Assembly: GCA_012520725.1 (NCBI GenBank)
Contig: JAAYNQ010000159.1
Span: forward strand, 1 to 39,078
DNA: 39,078 nucleotides
DNA from: Syntrophomonadaceae bacterium
GTDB lineage: Bacteria > Bacillota > Syntrophomonadia > Syntrophomonadales > Syntrophomonadaceae
Reading direction: 5' to 3'
Position numbers and translations under genes: made by a program. The notes under the pieces were generated by a model. That model was given only the letters and a program-made list of their open reading frames with translations, was not told where the DNA came from and made no database searches. Below, piece after piece: positions 20,423 through 38,194 of the stretch; position 1 is the stretch's first letter; every line of letters begins with the position of its first letter.

Positions 20423-20446
20423 CGTTTATGGAAAGAGGTGATAGTT

Positions 20447-21517
20447 ATGTATGCTGTAATAATGGCTGGAGGCAGGGGAGAGCGTTTTTGGCCTCTATCC
20501 AGGCGGGAGAAACCTAAACAGTTTTTGCCTTTGCTGGGCCATCGTAGTATGCTGCAGTTGACAGCAGACCGGCTAAAAGGCTTGCTGGGGCCGGAGGATA
20601 TCTATGTGGTCACTGATATATCGTACCGGGAATTAGTGCAAGAACAGCTGCCGCAGTTGGATCCCAGCCACATCATATGCGAATACTGCGGTCGGGATAC
20701 TGCAGCAGCAGCAGGGTTGGCAGCTGTGTACATACAGGGGAGGGATCCGCAAAGCATCATGCTGGTTCTCCCAGCCGATCATTTCATTGCTGACCAGGAA
20801 GCCTTTCAAAAGACAATAAGGGTGGCAGCCAGCCTGGCTGAAGGAGGGGAGTGGGTGCTGACCATTGGCATCAAGCCCAATAGGCCGGAAACCGGATATG
20901 GATACATACAACAGGGGGAGTTCCGGCAGAAAATAGAGGGTATTGATGTTTATAAAACCCAGGCCTTTCATGAGAAACCCGATCAGGAAACAGCCCTGGC
21001 TTATTTGGCCTCAAACACTTACCTCTGGAATAGTGGTATCTTTGTCTGGCGCAGCGATTTGTTTTTAGACCTGATAGCCAGGTATCTGCCTCAATTGGAT
21101 AAAGGCCTGCATTTTATTGCCAGGAATTTGGGCAGTGAGATGGAACAAGACATTATAAAAGAAGTCTACGAGAAATTGCCCAAAATTTCCATAGATTATG
21201 GTATCATGGAAAAATGTAACCAGGTCTTGGTAATTCCGGCTTTCTTTGCTTGGGATGATGTTGGGAGCTGGGCGGCTTTGGAACGCTACCGGCAGGCTGA
21301 CCCCAGGGGCAATATACTGGAGAGCAAAGGGGTATTTGTGGATACCAGTCAATGTATGGTATATTCTCCTAAGCGAGTGGTAGCCACCCTGGGGGTGGAA
21401 GGCTTAATAATCGTGGATAACCAGGACAGTCTGCTGGTTTGCAGCAAAGACCGGGCTCAAGAAATAAAACAGGTGGTGGAAGCCTTAAAGGTTGCCGGGT
21501 ATCAAGATCTTATATAG
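20447..21517 (+). CDS. manC: Mannose-1-phosphate guanylyltransferase
   Basis: 356-residue nucleotidyltransferase making GDP-mannose from mannose 1-phosphate and GTP. The signature AGGRGERFWPLSRREKPKQF (residues about 7-26) is the GDP-mannose pyrophosphorylase form. LPADHFI (base-binding), FHEKPDQ and YLWNSGIFVWR are intact. It is the single-domain type, without the phosphomannose isomerase domain of AlgA/ManC fusions. The start is ATG 20447, with AGAGGTG seven bases upstream; GTG 20438 sits inside that SD. It precedes the phosphomannomutase gene by 38 bases and is surely co-transcribed with it. Confidence 0.93.
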   Translation: MYAVIMAGGRGERFWPLSRREKPKQFLPLLGHRSMLQLTADRLKGLLGPEDIYVVTDISYRELVQEQLPQLDPSHIICEYCGRDTAAAAGLAAVYIQGRDPQSIMLVLPADHFIADQEAFQKTIRVAASLAEGGEWVLTIGIKPNRPETGYGYIQQGEFRQKIEGIDVYKTQAFHEKPDQETALAYLASNTYLWNSGIFVWRSDLFLDLIARYLPQLDKGLHFIARNLGSEMEQDIIKEVYEKLPKISIDYGIMEKCNQVLVIPAFFAWDDVGSWAALERYRQADPRGNILESKGVFVDTSQCMVYSPKRVVATLGVEGLIIVDNQDSLLVCSKDRAQEIKQVVEALKVAGYQDLI

Positions 21518-21555
21518 AAGCTATTAGATTATTTTGCTTAGGGAGAGTGAAACCA

Positions 21556-22920
21556 TTGATAAGTCCTAATATTTTTAGGTTGTATGATATTCGTGGAGTA
21601 GTTGATCGGGATTTAAGCGAGGAGGCCGCCTATAAAATAGCACGGGCTTTGGCGGCCCAGGCTGCACAGCGGGGATGGAATAAAGTGCTTCTGGGTAGGG
21701 ACAATCGGCTATCCTCGCCCCGCTTAAGGGATATAACGGTTAAGGCCTTATTGGATTCCGGCTGTGAGGTATTGGATCTGGGAGTGGTTATTACCCCCAT
21801 TTTCTACTTTGCCGCCCGGCATCTGAATATAAAGGCAGGTCTTATGATTACCGCCAGCCACAATGCCGCGGAATTTAACGGTTTTAAAATACTGCTGGGG
21901 GAAACTACCATATACGGGGAGGAAATACAAGAGTTACGCCGGAAAGCAGAGAATGGAGAATTCGTATCCGGTTCAGCCGGCAGTGTCACTGAAGTGGATG
22001 TAATAGACGACTATATGGAGATGATTAAGGAGAAAATCCGGCTGGGGCCCAGGCCATTAAAAGTAGTAGTGGACTGTGGCAGTGGTACTGCCTCCCTTTT
22101 CGCGCCCCGCCTGTTTAAAGAGCTGGGCTGTGAGGTAATTGAACTTTATTGTGAATCAGATCCCATCTTTCCCTATCACCACCCTGATCCGGTAGCAGTA
22201 GAGAACTGCCAGGATCTGATTAAGCTTGTTAAACAGGAAGGTGCAGACCTGGGGATAGGTCTGGACGGTGACGGCGATCGCCTGGGGGTAGTAGATAGGG
22301 AAGGCCAGATAATCTGGGGCGATATGCTGATGATTCTATTCTGGCGGGAAATTCTGCCCCGGTATCCTGGCAGCGAATGTATTGTAGAAGTAAAATGCTC
22401 CCAGAGCTTGATAGATGAGATTAATCGTTTGGGTGGCAAGCCCTTGATATATAAAACCGGACACTCCTTAATCAAAGGCAAAATGAGAGAATGCGGGGCA
22501 GTTTTTACCGGTGAGATGTCAGGTCATCTCTTTTTTGCGGATGAATATTATGGCTATGATGATGCCCTATATGCTGCTGCCAGGCTCCTGCGTATACTGT
22601 CTCACAGTGATCAGGATTTGACCGGACTTTTGGCCGATATCAACAAATACTATGCCACTCCGGAAATCCGGGTTAAAAGCAGCGATGAAGAAAAATTCCA
22701 GGTAGTAGAGCAGGTCTTGCATCATTTTCAAAGTATCTATGAAGTGCTGGATGTGGATGGAGCCAGGATTCTTTTCCCGGGAGGATGGGGCCTGGTTCGG
22801 GCTTCCAATACCGGTCCAGAATTGATCGTACGCTGTGAAGGCAATACCCCGGAAGCCCTGGATAAAATCAGGGAAGAATTATTCGCTTATCTAAACACCC
22901 TGGGTATAAGCATGGGGTAG
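21556..22920 (+). CDS. manB: Phosphomannomutase / phosphoglucomutase
   Basis: 454-residue alpha-D-phosphohexomutase converting mannose 6-phosphate and mannose 1-phosphate (AlgC/ManB group). Phosphoserine Ser101 is in TASHNAAEFNG, metal loop D237-G-D-G-D-R, sugar-binding GEMSGHLFF, and the C-terminal phosphate loop RASNTGPELIVRCEG. The start is TTG 21556 (MISPNIFRLYDIRG), which gives the normal family length; the open frame continues upstream into manC, and GTG 21547 is too close to the SD. The mannose assignment rests on pairing with ManC. Confidence 0.92.
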   Translation: MISPNIFRLYDIRGVVDRDLSEEAAYKIARALAAQAAQRGWNKVLLGRDNRLSSPRLRDITVKALLDSGCEVLDLGVVITPIFYFAARHLNIKAGLMITASHNAAEFNGFKILLGETTIYGEEIQELRRKAENGEFVSGSAGSVTEVDVIDDYMEMIKEKIRLGPRPLKVVVDCGSGTASLFAPRLFKELGCEVIELYCESDPIFPYHHPDPVAVENCQDLIKLVKQEGADLGIGLDGDGDRLGVVDREGQIIWGDMLMILFWREILPRYPGSECIVEVKCSQSLIDEINRLGGKPLIYKTGHSLIKGKMRECGAVFTGEMSGHLFFADEYYGYDDALYAAARLLRILSHSDQDLTGLLADINKYYATPEIRVKSSDEEKFQVVEQVLHHFQSIYEVLDVDGARILFPGGWGLVRASNTGPELIVRCEGNTPEALDKIREELFAYLNTLGISMG

Positions 22921-23025
22921 TTCAGGATTGATAGCTGTGTATACCGTAAGCACGGAGCATTAGATACAGCTTGAAGCACAATTAAACTTGTTCCATTACC
23001 TATTTAAGCAGGAGGTGTTTCAAGG

Positions 23026-24198
23026 ATGAATTCTTATTTAATCGTGAGTACTTATCCTCCCCGGAAATGCGGAATTGCCAATTTCTCAAAAGACTTGAGG
23101 GATAGCCTGCTAAGCTATCGGCCCCGGGTACTCCTGGCAGCCCTGGATGACCTCTTTCAGAATTATGATTATCCCCCCGAGGTAGTATGGAGGATAAAGC
23201 AGGAGAATAAGGCTGATTATAAGGCCTGTGCCCACTGGGCTAATCAGGAGGCGGGGGTGGACATGATAATAATACAGCATGAATATGGGATATTCGGAGG
23301 GCCGGATGGAGAATACATAATGGAACTGGCTCGAAGTTTGAATAAACCTTTCCTGCTGGTAACTCATACTGTTTTGCCCCGTCCATCCGTCAGGCAACAT
23401 GAGATATTGAGCCATTTGGCCGGGCTGGCAGCGGGAGTCCTCTGTATGACCCAGCGATCTGCCAGACTATTATCCCAGATTTATCAGGTAAGAGCGGAGC
23501 GCATTTATGTGGTACCCCATGGGGTACCGGATTTAAGCCGGAAAAACCGGGAGCTTTTAAAAAAGCAGCACTCCTGGGAAAAACGGAAAATTATTACCAC
23601 CTTTGGCCTGATTGGACCGGGAAAAGGTCTGGAAATCGGACTTAAGGCCTTGGCCGGGCTGGTGGAGAAATACCCCCAGCTATTATATCTTATTGTGGGA
23701 GCCACCCATCCGGTATTGCTGAGGAATGAAGGGGAGCGCTACCGGGAAAGCATAATGCAGCTGGTTAGGGATTTAAAACTGGAAGAGCATGTGGTTTTTG
23801 ACAATCGTTATCTAGGTGATGAGGAATTGGCAGATTATCTATACCTGAGCGATATTTACCTCAGTCCTTATCCCAACCTGGACCAGGCGGTATCTGGCAC
23901 CCTGGCCTTTGCCGCAGGCACTGGACGTGCAATTATATCTACCCCCTACGAGTATGCCCGGGAATTGCTGGAGGGGGGAAGGGGCTTGCTGGCCGAAAAG
24001 CCCACTGCCGAAGCTCTATCCGTTTTGCTGGACTGCCTCTTAGGCAATCCCAGCCTGCAGGAAGAGCTGGAACGAAAAACTGCTGAGATTAGTGCTTCTT
24101 TAAGCTGGAGCAGTGTGGCAGGCCTTTACCATAAGATCAGTATGGAAATACTGGAGACTTTGAAGACCGGGGAGTTAATATTCATAAAAGAGCCATAA
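23026..24198 (+). CDS. GT4-family glycosyltransferase
   Basis: 390-residue GT-B fold glycosyltransferase, cytoplasmic. The N-terminus VSTYPPRKCGIANFSKDL is a recognisable GT4 subgroup opening. The C-terminal half shows YVVPHGVPD, TFGLIGPGKGLEIGLKA (donor-binding strand and loop), and the EX7E-like SGTLAFAAGTGRAIISTPYEYARELLEGGRG region. Given its neighbours the donor is probably GDP-mannose; that is inference. It follows manB after 105 bases with AGGAGGTG before ATG 23026. It converges on the GH130-fusion gene. Confidence 0.9.
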   Translation: MNSYLIVSTYPPRKCGIANFSKDLRDSLLSYRPRVLLAALDDLFQNYDYPPEVVWRIKQENKADYKACAHWANQEAGVDMIIIQHEYGIFGGPDGEYIMELARSLNKPFLLVTHTVLPRPSVRQHEILSHLAGLAAGVLCMTQRSARLLSQIYQVRAERIYVVPHGVPDLSRKNRELLKKQHSWEKRKIITTFGLIGPGKGLEIGLKALAGLVEKYPQLLYLIVGATHPVLLRNEGERYRESIMQLVRDLKLEEHVVFDNRYLGDEELADYLYLSDIYLSPYPNLDQAVSGTLAFAAGTGRAIISTPYEYARELLEGGRGLLAEKPTAEALSVLLDCLLGNPSLQEELERKTAEISASLSWSSVAGLYHKISMEILETLKTGELIFIKEP

Positions 24199-24459: not shown

Positions 24460-27400
24460 TCACCGGCGATATTCTGCAGGAATAAGCTCGGCCAGGGTAG
24501 CTGTGGCTACAGCAATATGGGTGTCAGCAGCTCCGTAATAAACCAGTATTTCGTCATCATCCTCCAGAATGTCTTTTTCCAGGGCCGGGATAGCTCCACA
24601 GGTGAACACCACGTTGGGTACCCAGGAACTATTATCAGAGCCAATCTCGTATTCTTCTTCCGGCTCCAGTATGCTGTTGGGGGAGCGATAAATAAGCAGT
24701 TCCGGGTTATTAAGATCCACCAGGATCACTCCCAGACGATAAACCAGCTCACGGTCAACCCCATGGTAAATCATCAGCCAACCGTAGCGGGTCTTAATAG
24801 GTTGAGTGCCTGCTCCGATTTTTAGCGAGTCCCACATCCGCCCCGAACGAGGTCCCATGATTATGGCATGCCTTTCCCGGGGGACCGGGAACTCCAATTT
24901 ATCCAAATAAGATACCCATATACTGGGTTCAATTCGGTGATAAATAACATATTTCCCTCGTATTTGCTCAGGGAACAGTATGGCATCTTTGTTCCAGATA
25001 TCTTTAAAGGCCAAGCCTTTTCTTTGCCAGCCTGCGAAGTTCCGAGCCAAAAAATCCTCAACCTTTATGGAAGCCGCAGCTATCTGGGCGATAACCCCAT
25101 CATAAGCGGTATACATCATATAAATTTCGTCATCAATAACTACTACCCGAGGGTCTTCACAACCCCGGCTTTCTTTCTCATTGGCCGGGGCAAATATAGG
25201 ATGGGGCAGTCGTTCCAGTACTCTATATCCATCGCTGATGGCTAATCCTATACGGGATACCTGGTCATCCCCATAAGCCCGGTAAAGGATATAAACCAGG
25301 CCCTCAAGTCTGAGACAGGCAGCATTGAGTACATATTTGCTTTCCCAATAATGTTCTTTAATGGGGCTGAGAATGGGATTGCCAGGATAACGCTGCAATG
25401 GCTTGGCCGGAGGATAGGCTATGGCTTCCTGGGCTACCACCTTTACATCTTTGGGTCTGATACCCAGGAGGGTGTCCAGAACATTTTCACTGGCCCTCCC
25501 TTCTCCGATTAGCTGCTGTACTCCGGATTCAATGCTGCCCACATCGTATCCCAGTTCCTGGTAGATTTCCTCCAAAAGATCATGGTTAAACCATTTTTCT
25601 TCCACATGACTGGATAGAGGAGTAGGTACTCCCCTTCCTCCTTTATAGTTGTAGCTGGCCCAGCTCCAGGCTGAGAGAGGTAAAAAAGTGCCGTCATCCA
25701 GTACCTGGCTCAGACCGTAACTATCACACATTATTCTGATTATTCCGGCTTCCCGGGTCTTCCCTTCTTCCTCCAGTCTCTGGGCCAGGCCTCTGAAGTT
25801 TTGGACCAGGGAGCGATGATGCAGGTTTTCAAAAATATTATGGGCTGAAAAAGCCGTGGTTTCATAACGTCCTATCAAGGAATTCCTGACCTTGCTTCCC
25901 AAATTCTTGCGTTCCCGGGCAAAGGATCTCCACAAATGGGCGTAGTTTTCTGCAATAGTGATATGACGGGCAATAAAGAGGCAGAAGCGGATCCGGGCAA
26001 ATTCGCCTCCCATACCCTTGTTAAATGGGGTGGTGACTATTCTGGTGGTTATTTTGTTCAGGTTGGATATATTGCCCAAACGAGCGATTTGACTGAATCT
26101 GGAATCCAGGACCATATACTTGATATCCACATCTTCCATGCCTTCCGGACGCAGGTTATCCAATATCCATAATAGAGCCCGATCTGCATATTTACGAGTC
26201 TCAATTAAATTAGCCAGGCTAACTGTTTCCCTGATATCCATTCCTGCCAATAGCTCCCTGGTACTATGGTATCCGGCCGGAATCATAACATTAACTGGGG
26301 GGAATCTTAGCAACATTTCTTTAAAGGTATCATCCCGCACAGAAAACATCTTTTGATGTGGCAGCAGCTGGAAGAGGCGCTGTAAAACCTGGGCTACCCC
26401 TTCCTGGCTGTATAAATCACCAGGAAACAAAGATTCCATGGTCTTTTCCAGTTCCTGCAAGTATTCCTGATAAGCACTGCATATGGCAGAGGCCGGAGCA
26501 TCAAGAGCCAGACCCAGGGATTGGTGGATTACCTGTTCAAAGCCTTCCTGATAGCGTCTTTGCAAACGATTAAAGACTTCTTCCGTAAATATCTTTTTAC
26601 CGCCTTTACCGGTCAGGGTATTAGGTAAAACAATAGGTATGCCAGGCACATATTCCAGGTAACGGGAGGGAGTAAGAGGTGGAGTAACTTCCAGGAGCTT
26701 ATTTTTCCATTTATCCTGAAAGCTGTCTCTGAGCCTGAGAAAAGATTTGCGCTGTTCCAATCTAATCCTATCTGCTTCCATGAGTACCAGGAGCTTGGGG
26801 TCCAAACCCTTAATACCCTCCAGTACTTCCTCCAAGAACTGGATCTGCATAACATAAGCGGCAATTCTTCCATTAAAGGCAGTTGTGAGGGTGTTTAGAA
26901 TGTCATCTTTCTGCAGTTCCCGACTAAAGCAGTACTCAAATAACAGGGCCAGAACCAATTTGGACCAGGTTTCTGATTTGAAGTTGAATTCCCGGCTGGG
27001 GGTCAGTACTGATTTTTTTAGTTCTACATATAACTGTTCCTCCACCGCTCTTTCATATACCGGCTCATACTGGTAAAAATTGCGCTTAAAGAACATTACC
27101 AGTCCCTCAGTAGAGAAGATCACTTCCATAGGTTCTTCTTCGCTTTCCCTACCATGTATATCCGGCACCTGAAAGATAATTGACTTTTTCAGCCAATGCT
27201 CTTCATCCCTTTTAATACATTCAAACAGAGCCCGGGCTATCTGCTTGAAAAGGTAATTGACCTTTTCCAGTGAGAAACGCTCCAACTTAGCTCCCAGTGA
27301 GACTTGGCACATTTCTTTATTCCAGCTCATGACCCGGGTTATTATCCAGGGATCAATGCCATAACTCCTGGTGATTTCCGGCCAGAATTTGAATTCCAGG

Positions 27401-28023
27401 CACAAATCCTCCACCAGGTTTTGGGAAAGGGCATAAATTCCACTTAAAGCTCCATCGATACGAAATCCGTAGAAACACTCCAGCAAGGGTGCTACCAAAA
27501 AGCTATTGATGGAATTATCAAAATAATGCTCCCGGTAAGTAGCCAGAACAAAATCATATTTTAATCCCAGGGGTTCTAGCAGTCTGCTTATCCAATCTGC
27601 CTTAAGTCCTCGTTCCTGCTTTTTAACTAAATCAGCCGCAAAGATTAGGAGATCGGAGCTGAGATGATTAGCTATTTCCAGCATTGCTCTAATGCTGGCC
27701 CCCCTGCCGTTACTACCGGGCAGCATCAGAAATTCATAGTGGGGAAAGTGAAAATCCATACTTTTTATAGCTGCCAGGGCTACTGCTCCCTCCGGGTCGC
27801 CTACGGATAAAATTAAGGGATTCCGGTAGTTTGTCATGTTCAATAATGCTTTCTCTATAGTTCTTAATATTAAGGGCAAGGTATCTTTTTCATTGTAGAA
27901 AGGAATCCCAATAATCAAATCAGCCTGGTAAGATGTTAAATCCTGCCAGGCGTTATTTAAACTCTCATTAAACAGAACTTCACCTTTGTCTTCAATATCC
28001 CAATTCATTGGTTTCAGTTCCAT
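24460..28023 (-). CDS. GT-A-like glycosyltransferase fused to GH130 mannoside phosphorylase
   Basis: 1187-residue cytoplasmic protein. Residues about 33-280 resemble a GT2/GT81-type GT-A domain (LIIGIPFYNEKDTLPLILRT, then LLIFAADLVKKQ where a DxD is expected but only AAD is seen, and GFRIDGALSGIYALS). Residues about 300-860 are mostly helical and not recognised. Residues about 875-1187 are a GH130 domain: RYPGNPILSP, YVLNAACLRLEGLVYILYRA, GCEDPRV with the catalytic Asp957, and IGAGTQPIKTRYGWLMIYHG. GH130 enzymes phosphorolyse mannosides, releasing mannose 1-phosphate. No signal peptide is present. It lies opposite the manC-manB-GT4 genes. A terminator is at 24218-24253. Confidence 0.9.
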   Translation of the reverse strand: MELKPMNWDIEDKGEVLFNESLNNAWQDLTSYQADLIIGIPFYNEKDTLPLILRTIEKALLNMTNYRNPLILSVGDPEGAVALAAIKSMDFHFPHYEFLMLPGSNGRGASIRAMLEIANHLSSDLLIFAADLVKKQERGLKADWISRLLEPLGLKYDFVLATYREHYFDNSINSFLVAPLLECFYGFRIDGALSGIYALSQNLVEDLCLEFKFWPEITRSYGIDPWIITRVMSWNKEMCQVSLGAKLERFSLEKVNYLFKQIARALFECIKRDEEHWLKKSIIFQVPDIHGRESEEEPMEVIFSTEGLVMFFKRNFYQYEPVYERAVEEQLYVELKKSVLTPSREFNFKSETWSKLVLALLFEYCFSRELQKDDILNTLTTAFNGRIAAYVMQIQFLEEVLEGIKGLDPKLLVLMEADRIRLEQRKSFLRLRDSFQDKWKNKLLEVTPPLTPSRYLEYVPGIPIVLPNTLTGKGGKKIFTEEVFNRLQRRYQEGFEQVIHQSLGLALDAPASAICSAYQEYLQELEKTMESLFPGDLYSQEGVAQVLQRLFQLLPHQKMFSVRDDTFKEMLLRFPPVNVMIPAGYHSTRELLAGMDIRETVSLANLIETRKYADRALLWILDNLRPEGMEDVDIKYMVLDSRFSQIARLGNISNLNKITTRIVTTPFNKGMGGEFARIRFCLFIARHITIAENYAHLWRSFARERKNLGSKVRNSLIGRYETTAFSAHNIFENLHHRSLVQNFRGLAQRLEEEGKTREAGIIRIMCDSYGLSQVLDDGTFLPLSAWSWASYNYKGGRGVPTPLSSHVEEKWFNHDLLEEIYQELGYDVGSIESGVQQLIGEGRASENVLDTLLGIRPKDVKVVAQEAIAYPPAKPLQRYPGNPILSPIKEHYWESKYVLNAACLRLEGLVYILYRAYGDDQVSRIGLAISDGYRVLERLPHPIFAPANEKESRGCEDPRVVVIDDEIYMMYTAYDGVIAQIAAASIKVEDFLARNFAGWQRKGLAFKDIWNKDAILFPEQIRGKYVIYHRIEPSIWVSYLDKLEFPVPRERHAIIMGPRSGRMWDSLKIGAGTQPIKTRYGWLMIYHGVDRELVYRLGVILVDLNNPELLIYRSPNSILEPEEEYEIGSDNSSWVPNVVFTCGAIPALEKDILEDDDEILVYYGAADTHIAVATATLAELIPAEYRR

Positions 28024-30366: not shown

Positions 30367-30720
30367 CTTATGGAAAGAAAAGTTGGGTGGGGTGAAGAGA
30401 TTTTCAACTTTAACCATGAGCAACAAGAACCCAGATGCTTGCCCCCTTGGCTGTCAGGTGGCAGATGCGAAAAAAATCGACGCTGTCCACTGTAACATTA
30501 ATCAGGACCATAGCCGGTTGATGCCGCTACTGGGGTCAGGCAGTGAACATTGGCATTTACTATCCTTGAGGCAGGTTTTGGCTTTGGGCCATAGTGCTTA
30601 AACAATGATCAAAAAATACGGATGGACAATAAGATTATACCAAAGCAGGAAAATCATAGCTTTTAAAGAAATATTATGCATGGATTATGTAAAATAGGCA
30701 TGGTCAAAAGAGGTTGGGCT
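30367..30720 (+). other. Intergenic stretch before the sigma-54 activator gene
   Basis: About 350 bases. A 61-codon frame from ATG 30416 to 30601 exists (SNKNPDACPLGCQVADAKK) but has no SD and no recognised family, so I do not call it. No clear promoter was seen. Confidence 0.45.
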
Positions 30721-32829
30721 ATGAAATTAAGTGAAATCATGAGTACTAAGCTAGCGGTTTTAAAGCCTTCCCATACTATAAAAGAAGCCAGTCAATTGTT
30801 TTTAGACCGGCAAATAGACGGGGCTCCGGTGGTAAACCAAAAGGGAGAACTGTTGGGCCTGGTAACCAAGAGCCATGTATACCGGGCTTTGGCTCAGGAG
30901 CTTAATCCCCACACCCCGGTAACAGCTCTAATGAAAAAGGAGCTGGTTCTGGGGCGGCCTGAGGAGCAGGTGATAGGTCTTCTGGATAGTAAGGTGGGAC
31001 GTCTGCCGGTGGTGGATAAAAATCTGATTATAGGCATGATTACCAGAACCGACCTGGCCCGGGCCTATTTCAATTCCTTCACTGACATGGCCAGCGAATT
31101 CGCTGCCATATTAGATTCTACCCATAATTTGATTGTATCTACTGACAGCAATGGGAAAATAAGTGTATTGAACCGGGCGGCCGAGAAATTTCTGGGTCTA
31201 AAAAGCAGTGCGGTTCGGGGCCGGGATATAGTAGAAATCATTCCCAATAGCGGCCTCAAAGAAATTCTGGATACCGGGGTCAGTAAACCGGTGCAGAAAA
31301 TAGAGCTAAAACAGGGTAGCTTTATTTCCAATCGCACCCCGATCAAAAAAGGCGGTCAGATAATGGGGGCAGTAGCAGTTCTGCAGGATATTTCAGAGTT
31401 GGAGAGCATATCCCGGGAATTGGAAAACGTAAAGGAATTAAATGCTGAGCTGGATGCCATAATAGAATCCTCTCATGATGGTATTTACCTTACCGATGGG
31501 GAGGGGATTACCCTGCGCTTAAATGAAGCTTTCGAAAAGCTTACCGGATTTTCCAGAAATGAACTCTTAGGCCGCAGTGTGGAGGATTTGGTGAAGGAAA
31601 AAGGAGTGGTTTCAGTTTCGGTAAGTACTCTGGTCCTGAAAGAGAAAAAACCTCAGACCATTATACAAAAAACCAGAACCGGGGTCACCGCCTTGAGTAC
31701 CGGGACTCCAGTATTCGATCGCAAGGGGAAAATATTTAGGGTGGTTTCCAATGTAAGAGATATAAGCGAATTGATACGTTTGCAAGAACAATTGGAGCAG
31801 GCCCAGAGTTTGAGCAAGCACTATGAATCCGAGCTGCGCTCCTTGCAAATGAAGTATTCCGGTTCAGAAAAACTAATTGTCAGCTCCCAGAAGATGAAAG
31901 AATTATTAGAGACTGTAATCCGTCTATCCCAGGTTGATTCCACGGTACTGATAAGTGGAGAATCGGGAACTGGAAAAGAGCTTATAGCTGAGACCATACA
32001 TAACAACAGCCCCCGAAAAGATGGCCCTTTCATAAAAATAAATTGTGGTGCTATTTCTCATCACCTGCTGGAGACTGAATTATTCGGCTATGAAGATGGA
32101 GCTTTTACCGGAGCTAAAAAAGGGGGCAAGGCCGGTTATTTTGAGCTGGCCAGTGGGGGTACCCTGCTCCTGGATGAAATAAGCGAGCTGCCCTTTAATC
32201 TACAGGCCAACTTATTACGGGTGGTTCAAGACAAAGAACTTATCCGGGTAGGAGGGGAAAGAACCATACCCGTTGATGTTCGCATTTTGGCGGCAACCAA
32301 CCGGGATATACTGGATATGGTGGAAAAGAATGAATTTCGTCAAGATCTGTATTACCGGCTAAATGTGGTTCCCATTGAGGTTCCACCCCTTAGGGAGAGA
32401 AAGGAAGAGATTCCCCTTTTAATAGCCAACTTTATCAAGCTTTTTAATAAGAAATACCAGATGAACAAAATATGTTCCAACCAGGTTATAGATGTACTGA
32501 TGGAATACGATTGGCCGGGAAATGTAAGAGAGTTGGAAAACCTGGTGGAAAGATTAGTGGTAACCGTAGCCGGCAATACAATTTCGGTAGAACACCTGCC
32601 TTTGCATCTAAAAAACCATATCCCTGGACCCGCCCATCCTCAAATCACTGTTTCAGGAATACTGCCCCTCAAGGAAGCGGTTGAAGTGGTGGAAAAGCAG
32701 ATTTTGGAACAGGCTGCCTCTCGTTATCGCCTGACCCGGGAGATAGCTCAGGAACTTAAAGTAGATCCTTCCACAGTACTCAGGAAAGCAGCTAAATATG
32801 GAATAACTCTGGGTGAGCACAGGATATAA
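30721..32829 (+). CDS. CBS-PAS-PAS sigma-54-dependent transcriptional activator
   Basis: 702-residue enhancer-binding protein that opens sigma-54 promoters using ATP. Domains in order: a CBS pair at the very N-terminus (about 1-115; KLSEIMSTKLAVLKPSHTIKEA), two PAS domains (about 130-240 and 250-365), a coiled-coil linker, the AAA+ domain with Walker A GESGTGKE (413-420) and the sigma-54 contact loop GAFTGA (460-465), then a Fis-type helix-turn-helix (about 665-695; REIAQELKVDPSTVLRKAAKYG). The start is ATG 30721 with AAGAGG; the in-frame ATG 30676 lacks an SD. CBS domains commonly bind adenylates, so an energy or acyl-CoA signal is possible. Its target is probably the -24/-12 promoter at 33148. 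Confidence 0.95.
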   Translation: MKLSEIMSTKLAVLKPSHTIKEASQLFLDRQIDGAPVVNQKGELLGLVTKSHVYRALAQELNPHTPVTALMKKELVLGRPEEQVIGLLDSKVGRLPVVDKNLIIGMITRTDLARAYFNSFTDMASEFAAILDSTHNLIVSTDSNGKISVLNRAAEKFLGLKSSAVRGRDIVEIIPNSGLKEILDTGVSKPVQKIELKQGSFISNRTPIKKGGQIMGAVAVLQDISELESISRELENVKELNAELDAIIESSHDGIYLTDGEGITLRLNEAFEKLTGFSRNELLGRSVEDLVKEKGVVSVSVSTLVLKEKKPQTIIQKTRTGVTALSTGTPVFDRKGKIFRVVSNVRDISELIRLQEQLEQAQSLSKHYESELRSLQMKYSGSEKLIVSSQKMKELLETVIRLSQVDSTVLISGESGTGKELIAETIHNNSPRKDGPFIKINCGAISHHLLETELFGYEDGAFTGAKKGGKAGYFELASGGTLLLDEISELPFNLQANLLRVVQDKELIRVGGERTIPVDVRILAATNRDILDMVEKNEFRQDLYYRLNVVPIEVPPLRERKEEIPLLIANFIKLFNKKYQMNKICSNQVIDVLMEYDWPGNVRELENLVERLVVTVAGNTISVEHLPLHLKNHIPGPAHPQITVSGILPLKEAVEVVEKQILEQAASRYRLTREIAQELKVDPSTVLRKAAKYGITLGEHRI

Positions 32830-36637: not shown

Positions 36638-38194
36638 TTATTTAAGCACTTTGGCTTCCACCTTATTGGCTTCATCATTGGCATGATGGAGCCTATTTAT
36701 GGCGGGGCCTTCCACAATATCACCCTCATATGAGAATCTGGAACCATGGCAAGGGCAGTCCCAGGTCTTTTCAGCACTGTTCCAGGCCAGCTCACAGCCC
36801 AGATGGGTACAGGTAGTATCCACCATATGGACCTGTCCGTCCTCATCTTTGTAAACTCCGATACGATTGCCTTCATAGTTGACAACCTGCGCTTCCCCAT
36901 TTTTCAACTCCCTGGGAGGGGAAAGCTGACCTAGTTTTCTGGATAGCAGATCTTTAGCCACATTGGCATTCTGAATGATGAAGGTTTTCAGACTCGACCC
37001 AGTGCTAAACAACCTGGAGGGGCTATATACTGTGGCCCAGGGGTTATCTCCCTTGAGTATCAAATCAGATAAAATCATGGCAGCTGCCGTTCCATTAGTC
37101 ATGCCCCATTTACCAAATCCAGTGGCTACGTAAATGTGCGGGCTCCGGGGAGTCAGGTGGCCAACATAGGGAAGCTGATCAATGGTCATGCAGTCCTGAG
37201 TAGACCATCTATAAAGTATTTCTCGAAGGGAGAAGTTTTCTTGAGCAAATTTTATCAATTGCTCATAGTGAAGATTGGTATCTTCACCATGGCCTGTTTT
37301 GTGGTGTTCACCCCCGAATAAAACCAATTCACCATCTTCCATAGGCTGGGAACGCAGTGAACGAGTGGGGTCTTCAGCACTTATAAACATTCCGTCAGGA
37401 AACTTTTCTTCGATTTGTGCGGCTACCACATAGGATTTGTCTTGATACATCTTGCTAAAATACAGACCGCCCCCATCAAAAAATGGAAAATGGGTAGCAA
37501 TAATAACCTTGGAGGCATATACCTTATGACCGTTTCTGCTGGCTATAACCGGTTTACCGGCCTGATCGATGTCAAGAGCTTCGGTATTTTCAAATATCAA
37601 AGCCCCCTTATCACTGCACTCCCTGGCCAGAGCCTTCAAATATTTTAAAGGATGAAACTGAGCCTGCTCATCAAAGCGCAGGGCGGCCTTAACCTCAAAA
37701 GGAAGAGGAACAGTATCCAGAAAACTGGCTTTAATCCCCAGGTCTTTGGCATCTTCGCTTTCATCAGCCAGGTCTTGAACATATTTGTCACTTTGGGTGT
37801 AGATATAGGCCGGGCACCATTTGAAATCACATGGGATTTGTTTTTCACCCACCGTTTTGGCTATTTGTCTAATAGCGTTTTGATTAGCTTCAGCATATTG
37901 CATTGCCAATTCACGGCCTATTTGTTTTTTCAGTGTGGAATATATGATACCATGCTGGGAAGTGATTTTTGCCGTGGTATGTCCGGTAGTACCGTTTAAT
38001 ATCCGGTCTGCTTCGATAACAGCTACCTGCAAGCCTGCTTGATTGAGCATATATGCACTACTGATACCAACAATACCTCCGCCTATAATTGCCACATCCA
38101 CAGTGGTATCTTCATTAAGCTGGGGATAATCGGTGCTATCGGTGGAAGCAATCCAATATGGATTGGGCTCTCCAGTAATTTCTAACTTCATCAT
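36638..38194 (-). CDS. FAD-dependent oxidoreductase with C-terminal Rieske domain
   Basis: 518 residues. An N-terminal DAO-type FAD domain has GGGIVG (38-43) and HTTAKITSQHG, and its C-terminal FAD segment is YVATGFGKWGMTNG. A C-terminal Rieske 2Fe-2S domain has C462-T-H464 and C480-PC-H483, with the GSRFSYEGDIVEGPA loop. It matches the YhfW group of FAD-Rieske proteins. The substrate (an amine or amino acid) is unknown. No signal peptide. Start ATG 38194 (a second ATG follows at once). A promoter is likely at 38217-38245. Confidence 0.92.
   Translation of the reverse strand: MMKLEITGEPNPYWIASTDSTDYPQLNEDTTVDVAIIGGGIVGISSAYMLNQAGLQVAVIEADRILNGTTGHTTAKITSQHGIIYSTLKKQIGRELAMQYAEANQNAIRQIAKTVGEKQIPCDFKWCPAYIYTQSDKYVQDLADESEDAKDLGIKASFLDTVPLPFEVKAALRFDEQAQFHPLKYLKALARECSDKGALIFENTEALDIDQAGKPVIASRNGHKVYASKVIIATHFPFFDGGGLYFSKMYQDKSYVVAAQIEEKFPDGMFISAEDPTRSLRSQPMEDGELVLFGGEHHKTGHGEDTNLHYEQLIKFAQENFSLREILYRWSTQDCMTIDQLPYVGHLTPRSPHIYVATGFGKWGMTNGTAAAMILSDLILKGDNPWATVYSPSRLFSTGSSLKTFIIQNANVAKDLLSRKLGQLSPPRELKNGEAQVVNYEGNRIGVYKDEDGQVHMVDTTCTHLGCELAWNSAEKTWDCPCHGSRFSYEGDIVEGPAINRLHHANDEANKVEAKVLK

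Follow-up and report, generated by a model that had tools for sequence, protein, structure and literature searches.

What might a single protein do that carries a glycosyltransferase-like domain at one end and a phosphorylase-like domain at the other? The question is raised by a gene on a 39,078 bp stretch of DNA from a Syntrophomonadaceae bacterium (GenBank assembly GCA_012520725.1, contig JAAYNQ010000159.1, positions 1 to 39,078, here called the window), which lies on the minus strand at positions 24460..28023 and encodes 1187 amino acids (AAs) in a single uninterrupted frame with an ATG start. An initial annotation, made from the sequence alone, had divided its product into a GT-A-like N-terminus, a 560-residue middle that matched nothing and a C-terminal GH130 domain, and had proposed that a synthase and a phosphorylase on one chain would allow local control of synthesis against breakdown. 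The three parts do lie on one chain, and both terminal assignments stand. We interpret the tri-domain protein as a soluble, cytoplasmic 1,2-beta-mannan phosphorylase/synthase with a non-canonical, probably non-transferring GT78-type module, a predicted activity that we hold to be about evenly poised between right and wrong. Its relatives are encoded in 131 stretches of a collection of 84,980 species, and the 80 loci referred to below are the best 80 of these 131.

The C-terminal part (AAs 873–1187, 24463..25407, minus strand) belongs to GH130 and is of the 1,2-beta-mannan phosphorylase type, with its activity predicted. It matches Pfam PF04041 (E 8e-54), and in an AlphaFold2 model of the full-length protein (pLDDT 86, pTM 0.60) AAs 873–1184 form a five-bladed beta-propeller that superimposes on Teth514_1788 (9fj8_A; VIA Z 38.4, root mean square deviation (rmsd) 1.8 over 287 residues, 41% identity), a match with which Foldseek agrees; 7fip is nearly as close (VIA Z 38.2). 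The sequence GCEDPR (AAs 954–959, 25147..25164, minus strand) contains the GH130 catalytic Asp, D957, which is present in 78 of the 78 rows with a letter there, and E956, R959, K1012, R1030, H1087, D1090 and Y1095 likewise show no variation among the rows with a letter (76–78 of 80). The same set is found in all thirteen further rows, save for one D1090S. In the sequence alignment R1030 and H1087 match an Arg and a His of 7fip, and they are candidates for the basic phosphate-binding residues that phosphorylases have, in contrast to the Glu of hydrolases. A Lys common to Teth514_1788/1789 and a beta-1,2-mannosidase (K199 of BT3780) has been proposed as the beta-1,2 determinant (PMC4599007). By its spacing K1012 (24988..24990, minus strand), which aligns with the Lys of the NKDA sequence of Teth514_1788/1789, is the putative equivalent of K199. 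From its close kin and its invariant residues, the propeller would be expected to catalyse a reversible mannosyl transfer, with alpha-mannose-1-phosphate on one side and the terminus of a beta-1,2-mannan chain on the other.

The N-terminal part is more extensive than was first drawn. A single sequence identifies it as GT-A only weakly (E 0.31), and a family profile matches GtrB/ArnC/DPMS at about 1e-5. In the full-length model, AAs 36–435 match mannosylglycerate synthase of family GT78 (2bo7_A) with VIA Z 34.1 and rmsd 2.8 (350 of 375 residues aligned, 14% identity), which covers both the GT-A core and the GT78 helical tail; Foldseek finds 2y4j_B at E 5e-14. Stand-alone relatives of this module, 413–437 AAs long where the frame is clear, are present in four genomes (L101–L104), and by BLASTP one of them, L104, covers AAs 33–440 of the window protein (E 4e-23); L104 itself matches GpgS (GT81) in the PDB, and Pfam MGS_GT below its cut-off. 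The GT78-like module (AAs 36–437, 26713..27918, minus strand) thus reaches about residue 437 rather than ending near 300, and the 560-residue middle therefore consists of about 140 residues of GT78 tail followed by about 430 residues, here called domain B. A known family accordingly accounts for the first quarter of the middle (residues ~300–437) and for that quarter only. The module probably descends from a transferase similar to mannosyl/glucosylglycerate synthases, and the stand-alone relatives, with an intact DSD and metal His, probably are part of a mannosyl/glucosylglycerate system. We note that their surroundings include LacI-type regulators and, at L103, also a sugar-binding protein and an MGH1-like mannosylglycerate hydrolase (PF22422, E 3.5e-79).

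The initial annotation had remarked that the putative DxD of the GT-A domain reads AAD and may be altered or inactive. The LLIFAADLV motif does lie at residues ~125–133, and AAD (AAs 129–131, 27631..27639, minus strand) takes the place of the DSD of the stand-alone proteins. In GpgS and MgS the donor sugar is held by a network of the first DxD Asp, a Lys and an acid (D134-K114-E232 and D100-K76-D192, respectively), and the metal is bound by the second DxD Asp and a His (H258 and H217; PMC2581804). By alignment the corresponding residues of the window protein are A129, R107 and I196 for the network and D131 and E248 for the metal site. The stand-alone proteins have K, D, D, D and the His in four of four cases. 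Among the 90 tri-domain rows with letters at all four triad and DxD positions, one or both donor acids are lost in 87: only three, all deep-branching (L105, L108 and L109), have acids at both, eleven have one at the first position only and 76 have neither. Counted singly, 14 of the 91 rows with a letter have D or E at the first DxD position, 3 of 91 have an acid at the position of MgS D192/GpgS E232, and the metal His is found in 1 of 93. By this alignment the change to AAD is no chance substitution, and donor-acid loss runs through nearly all of the tri-domain family. In a tree of 31 chosen rows built with the trait columns removed and rooted on the stand-alone proteins, the members with K-E-D-E at these positions and L107 (R-E-D-V) fall outside a 100/99 clade of the 24 other tri-domain rows; the order of the forks among the deep members is unsettled, and a separate 70-row tree is a quick one.

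Since both donor acids and the metal His are lost, nucleotide-sugar transfer by the GT78-like module is unlikely, and since three catalytic features fail in spite of the GT78 fold, we have not filed the N-terminal part as an active GT78 enzyme. The AAD site is thus altered, as suggested, and probably inactive, and the idea that synthesis and phosphorolysis are balanced on one chain is weakened for the window protein. The module is nevertheless maintained. The median ratio of nonsynonymous to synonymous substitution (dN/dS) is 0.073 for the GT core (18 pairs), 0.149 for the GT tail (20), 0.085 for domain B (21) and 0.053 for GH130 (21), pairs without usable dS or with at most 100 codons in the module being excluded, and these values indicate that the GT78-like module is under strong purifying selection. 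It is therefore retained for some role, most likely one other than canonical transfer. The strong purifying selection also speaks for a rival reading, in which the module still transfers sugar through an altered donor site (without a canonical DxD, metal-independent or using another donor) and the protein both synthesizes and phosphorolyses. That second Asp D131 is kept in the window's clade (D in 57 of 93 rows), that the ribose-binding Glu E45 is kept in 78 of 93, and that the deep members L105, L108 and L109 keep K-E-D-E all speak for such an enzyme too; yet 76 of 90 rows lack both donor acids and 92 of 93 lack the metal His, and position 131 is mostly N, H, K or G in the second paralogue group. 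In yeast Mnn9, which is structurally GT78-like, the matching mutants are dead: D236N and D280N abolish activity and His389 is indispensable (PMC3787745). We consider a working transferase unlikely. Even without catalytic activity, Mnn9 turns on its partner, the Van1 mannan polymerase (PMC3787745), and the pseudo-transferase that we favour would most likely act in a comparable way, holding a primer or chain or activating its partner domains.

Domain B (AAs ~441–872; 25408..26694 on the minus strand for AAs 444–872) is mostly helical; it matched no family and, in searches with models that contain it, no confident fold, and to that extent part of the middle is without a match, as first noted. Pfam gave no match beyond chance for 17 members of the middle, PHROGs gave none for domain B, and NCBIfam gave none for domain B of the window and, among 39 members, only scattered single-member matches (best 0.006). 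A profile of the whole middle found nothing among PDB sequences (best E 0.89), and Foldseek searches of PDB and BFVD with an AlphaFold2 model of the 606-residue middle (pLDDT 85), in which domain B was not searched separately, gave nothing at E ≤0.001. The top VIA rows for that model are of DUF885 type (Z 7.8–6.8; 3u24 has Z 7.8, rmsd 5.6 and 236 residues aligned), which is within the chance range for helical models, and hhalign of domain B against one DUF885 protein gave a probability of 0.13; a DUF885 assignment is accordingly doubtful. Kinship with a neighbouring 340-residue protein of alpha/alpha type (A8) was rejected (hhalign probability 0.06), and a match to cyclic glucan synthase 8rf9 (Z 5.8), which involves the model's GT tail and not domain B, is attributed to chance. 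Domain B's most conserved motif, SAWSWASYxYKGGxxxPTPxxxxVEExWFNxxLLE (AAs 784–818, 25570..25674, minus strand), overlaps the RGVPTPLSSHVEEKW sequence at residues ~797–811; W786, W788, G796, P800, E808, W811 and F812 are each kept in 79 or 80 of 80 rows, and all 13 further rows, the deepest branches among them, have these residues as well. This motif may well mark a site of ligand binding or catalysis. Domain B was found only within the tri-domain context among the sequences compared, and, placed between the transferase and phosphorylase modules, it probably binds or processes the chain.

The tri-domain protein is conserved whole across the Syntrophomonadaceae and related Clostridia. The frame is closed and free of stops in 67 of the 80 loci, with lengths of 1033–1275 AAs (at least 1149 in 66 of the 67); each of the 67 has ~255–370 residues before the middle, so that no homologue without the GT-A part was seen among complete ones, and all except L044 have ~310–330 residues after it. 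This consistency of frames and flanking lengths indicates that the architecture is a stable unit and no accident of assembly. Two loci are irregular: the frame read in L085 contains 15 stops, and L044 ends inside the GH130 part; assembly errors are possible for both. L085 was dropped, as was the short L081 from the alignment of the middle; alignment A3 comprises 53 of the remaining loci, kept at <85% identity, A4 comprises 45 loci and the window with the truncated L044 excluded, and A5 comprises 30 loci of the AAD-like group and the window. Of 41 relative genomes, 33 have some match to the protein: 31 encode it whole or as a fragment, and the other two have a separate GH130 only. In a phylum-wide draw of 398 genomes, 52 match the middle, four of these only over its first ~140 positions and 48 with domain B; nearly all frames are ~1170–1275 AAs long, and the three shortest domain B frames (two in G010 and one in G271) run into contig ends. 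In the species collection, the loci closest to that of the window are from organisms named Syntrophomonadaceae bacterium or Syntrophomonas sp., and cultured carriers are Syntrophomonas zehnderi, S. palmitatica, S. wolfei subsp. methylbutyratica, Thermosyntropha lipolytica, Thermosediminibacter litoriperuensis, Fervidicola ferrireducens and Syntrophaceticus schinkii. There are two paralogue groups, the first with AAD or similar at the DxD site and the second with SAN, SAH and similar, and the window's genome carries both (C74 and C152). The highest 19-residue hydropathy of the protein is 1.22, and it has no transmembrane segment. We found no description of a GT-GH130 fusion in the titles and abstract openings of the papers listed by searches of one open-licence library.

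Neighbouring genes were counted in 81 loci (the 80 and the window), with flanks that often end with the contig and with clusters named from Pfam matches of representatives. On the plus strand of the window, three genes adjoin at 20438–24198: a mannose-1-phosphate guanylyltransferase of ManC type (20438..21517; cluster in 30 of 81 loci), a phosphomannomutase (PMM)/phosphoglucomutase (PGM) whose true start is probably further in (21439..22920; 24 of 81) and a GT4 glycosyltransferase, in convergent orientation to the tri-domain gene (23026..24198; 56 of 81). A DASS-type transporter lies on the other side of the tri-domain gene. Elsewhere GT4 is fused to phosphomannose isomerase (PMI) in 22 loci and a separate GH130 is found in 13. 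The second copy in the window's genome (L110) has GT4, PMM and ManC alongside, and among deep-branching members L105 has a nucleotidyltransferase, GT4 and PMM, and L106 has PGM, ManC, PMI and GT4. These conserved surroundings point to mannose activation: the neighbours would provide both mannose-1-phosphate and GDP-mannose and would probably also form a primer, and the recurrent biosynthetic set appears to favour synthesis and turnover over salvage. Teth514_1788/1789, in a cluster with GT4 and a mannose-1-phosphate guanylyltransferase, were proposed by Chiku et al. to act in salvage (PMC4264767), and by that model the tri-domain protein would phosphorolyse imported 1,2-beta-mannosides to mannose-1-phosphate for GDP-mannose, its N-terminal module and domain B only binding substrate. 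The Teth514 cluster, however, includes ABC transporters and a GH5 (PMC4264767), whereas among the larger Pfam-named neighbour clusters here the sole recurring transporter is of TRAP type (4 of 81 loci), and PMI, PMM, ManC and GT4 recur instead; we regard pure salvage as improbable. ManC, PMM and GT4 are also standard in capsule loci, and 4 of 81 loci have an LCP-type gene (PF03816) upstream, as would suit a cell-surface or capsule polysaccharide system in which the protein edits the chain length of an exported mannose glycan; but no flippase, Wzy or ABC exporter is present among the Pfam-named clusters (some clusters are unnamed) and the protein lacks a transmembrane stretch, so that we think this quite improbable. 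The cluster as a whole would instead make and mobilize an intracellular, mannogen-like store.

Among known systems, Teth514_1788/1789 are similar to the C-terminal module in fold (Z 38), in sequence (41–43% identity), in catalytic and specificity residues and in clustering with GT4 and a mannose-1-phosphate guanylyltransferase (PMC4264767), but they are single-domain proteins of ~300 residues without a GT78-like module or domain B. Mannosylglycerate synthase, GpgS and the stand-alone relatives share the fold of the N-terminal module across nearly its whole length; compared with the two enzymes, the module here has lost the donor acids and metal His and is fused to domain B and GH130. Cyclic beta-1,2-glucan synthase (GT84-CY-GH94) has the same order of parts on one chain, a GT-A transferase, a central domain and a C-terminal inverting beta-1,2-phosphorylase (PMC10901819), and by loose analogy the tri-domain protein may be a chain-handling platform tied to a phosphorylase, with domain B placed like the CY domain. 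The CAZy families differ throughout, however, the sugar is glucose there and mannose here, six transmembrane helices are present there and none here, and CY is GH144-like, a likeness not seen for domain B. Membership of the cyclic glucan synthases was rejected for want of transmembrane helices and for its GT78-like and GH130 modules in place of GT84 and GH94. The Leishmania GT108 mannogen transferase/phosphorylases have a five-bladed propeller and turn over beta-1,2-mannan (PMC8950772); they are single-domain and far more distant than GH130 (16% versus 41% identity), and membership of GT108 was rejected (6q50 has Z 22.9, against 38.4 for GH130). A tentative and rather doubtful extension of our interpretation is that the protein is a soluble bacterial mannose counterpart of cyclic beta-1,2-glucan synthase, in which a glycerate-type GT78 transferase once primed the chain and is now a conserved primer-holding pseudo-transferase, domain B is a novel domain for glycan processing, and GH130 extends and shortens a reserve of beta-1,2-mannan, independently of Leishmania mannogen; the deep members L105, L108 and L109 may still prime the chain.

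Several points weigh against the interpretation of the protein as a mannan phosphorylase/synthase with a non-transferring module. For these organisms neither an activity nor a product or polymer is known, and the NCBIfam beta-1,2-mannobiose phosphorylase equivalog NF052550 scores 259.9 bits, below its cut-off of 450. Metal-independent transfer, or transfer from another donor, by the GT78-like module is possible, and Mnn9 has R209 at the K76 position (PMC3787745); an Arg is thus tolerated there, and the triad change is therefore damaging only in part. Chiku et al. read the similar Thermoanaerobacter cluster as 1,2-beta-mannoside salvage for GDP-mannose (PMC4264767). A store that replaces glycogen would be a weak proposal: no GT5 glycogen synthase (PF08323) was found in the window's genome, and GT5 is missing from G000, G002, G003 and G004 and present in G001, but it co-occurs with the tri-domain gene in several f2 and f3 genomes, and glycogen replacement was rejected since the two genes are not cleanly exclusive across genomes.

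Further features of the surroundings are recorded here. A 340-residue protein with a TxDDNARAL motif and a weak likeness to GH88, GH127 and C5-epimerase adjoins the GT4 of the cluster (e.g. L071:8792-9799 and L110:5486-6487) or appears fused to it, as longer GT4 frames, in L025, L026, L105 and L106; the window GT4 at 23026 has no such adjoining partner. In 19 of 81 loci (e.g. L063, L064, L066, L069 and L070) the copy of paralogue group 2 has a gene for oligopeptidase F (M3 peptidase) directly upstream. In the window, 30676–32829 encodes a sigma-54 activator that carries CBS and PAS domains and has relatives close to the tri-domain genes of L058, L060 and L061, and 36638–38194 (minus strand) encodes an FAD-dependent oxidoreductase (DAO) with a C-terminal Rieske domain fused to it.

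Few pseudo-glycosyltransferase modules allow the loss of a donor site to be followed step by step on a phylogeny whose deep branches still have it nearly intact, and the tri-domain family would provide a natural series of such loss. Domain B, with its ~430 residues and strongly conserved motif, is a defined target for structure work. Chiku et al. stated that Thermoanaerobacter had no known source of 1,2-beta-oligomannan (PMC4264767); clusters like that of the window are candidate makers of 1,2-beta-oligomannan chains in related Clostridia.

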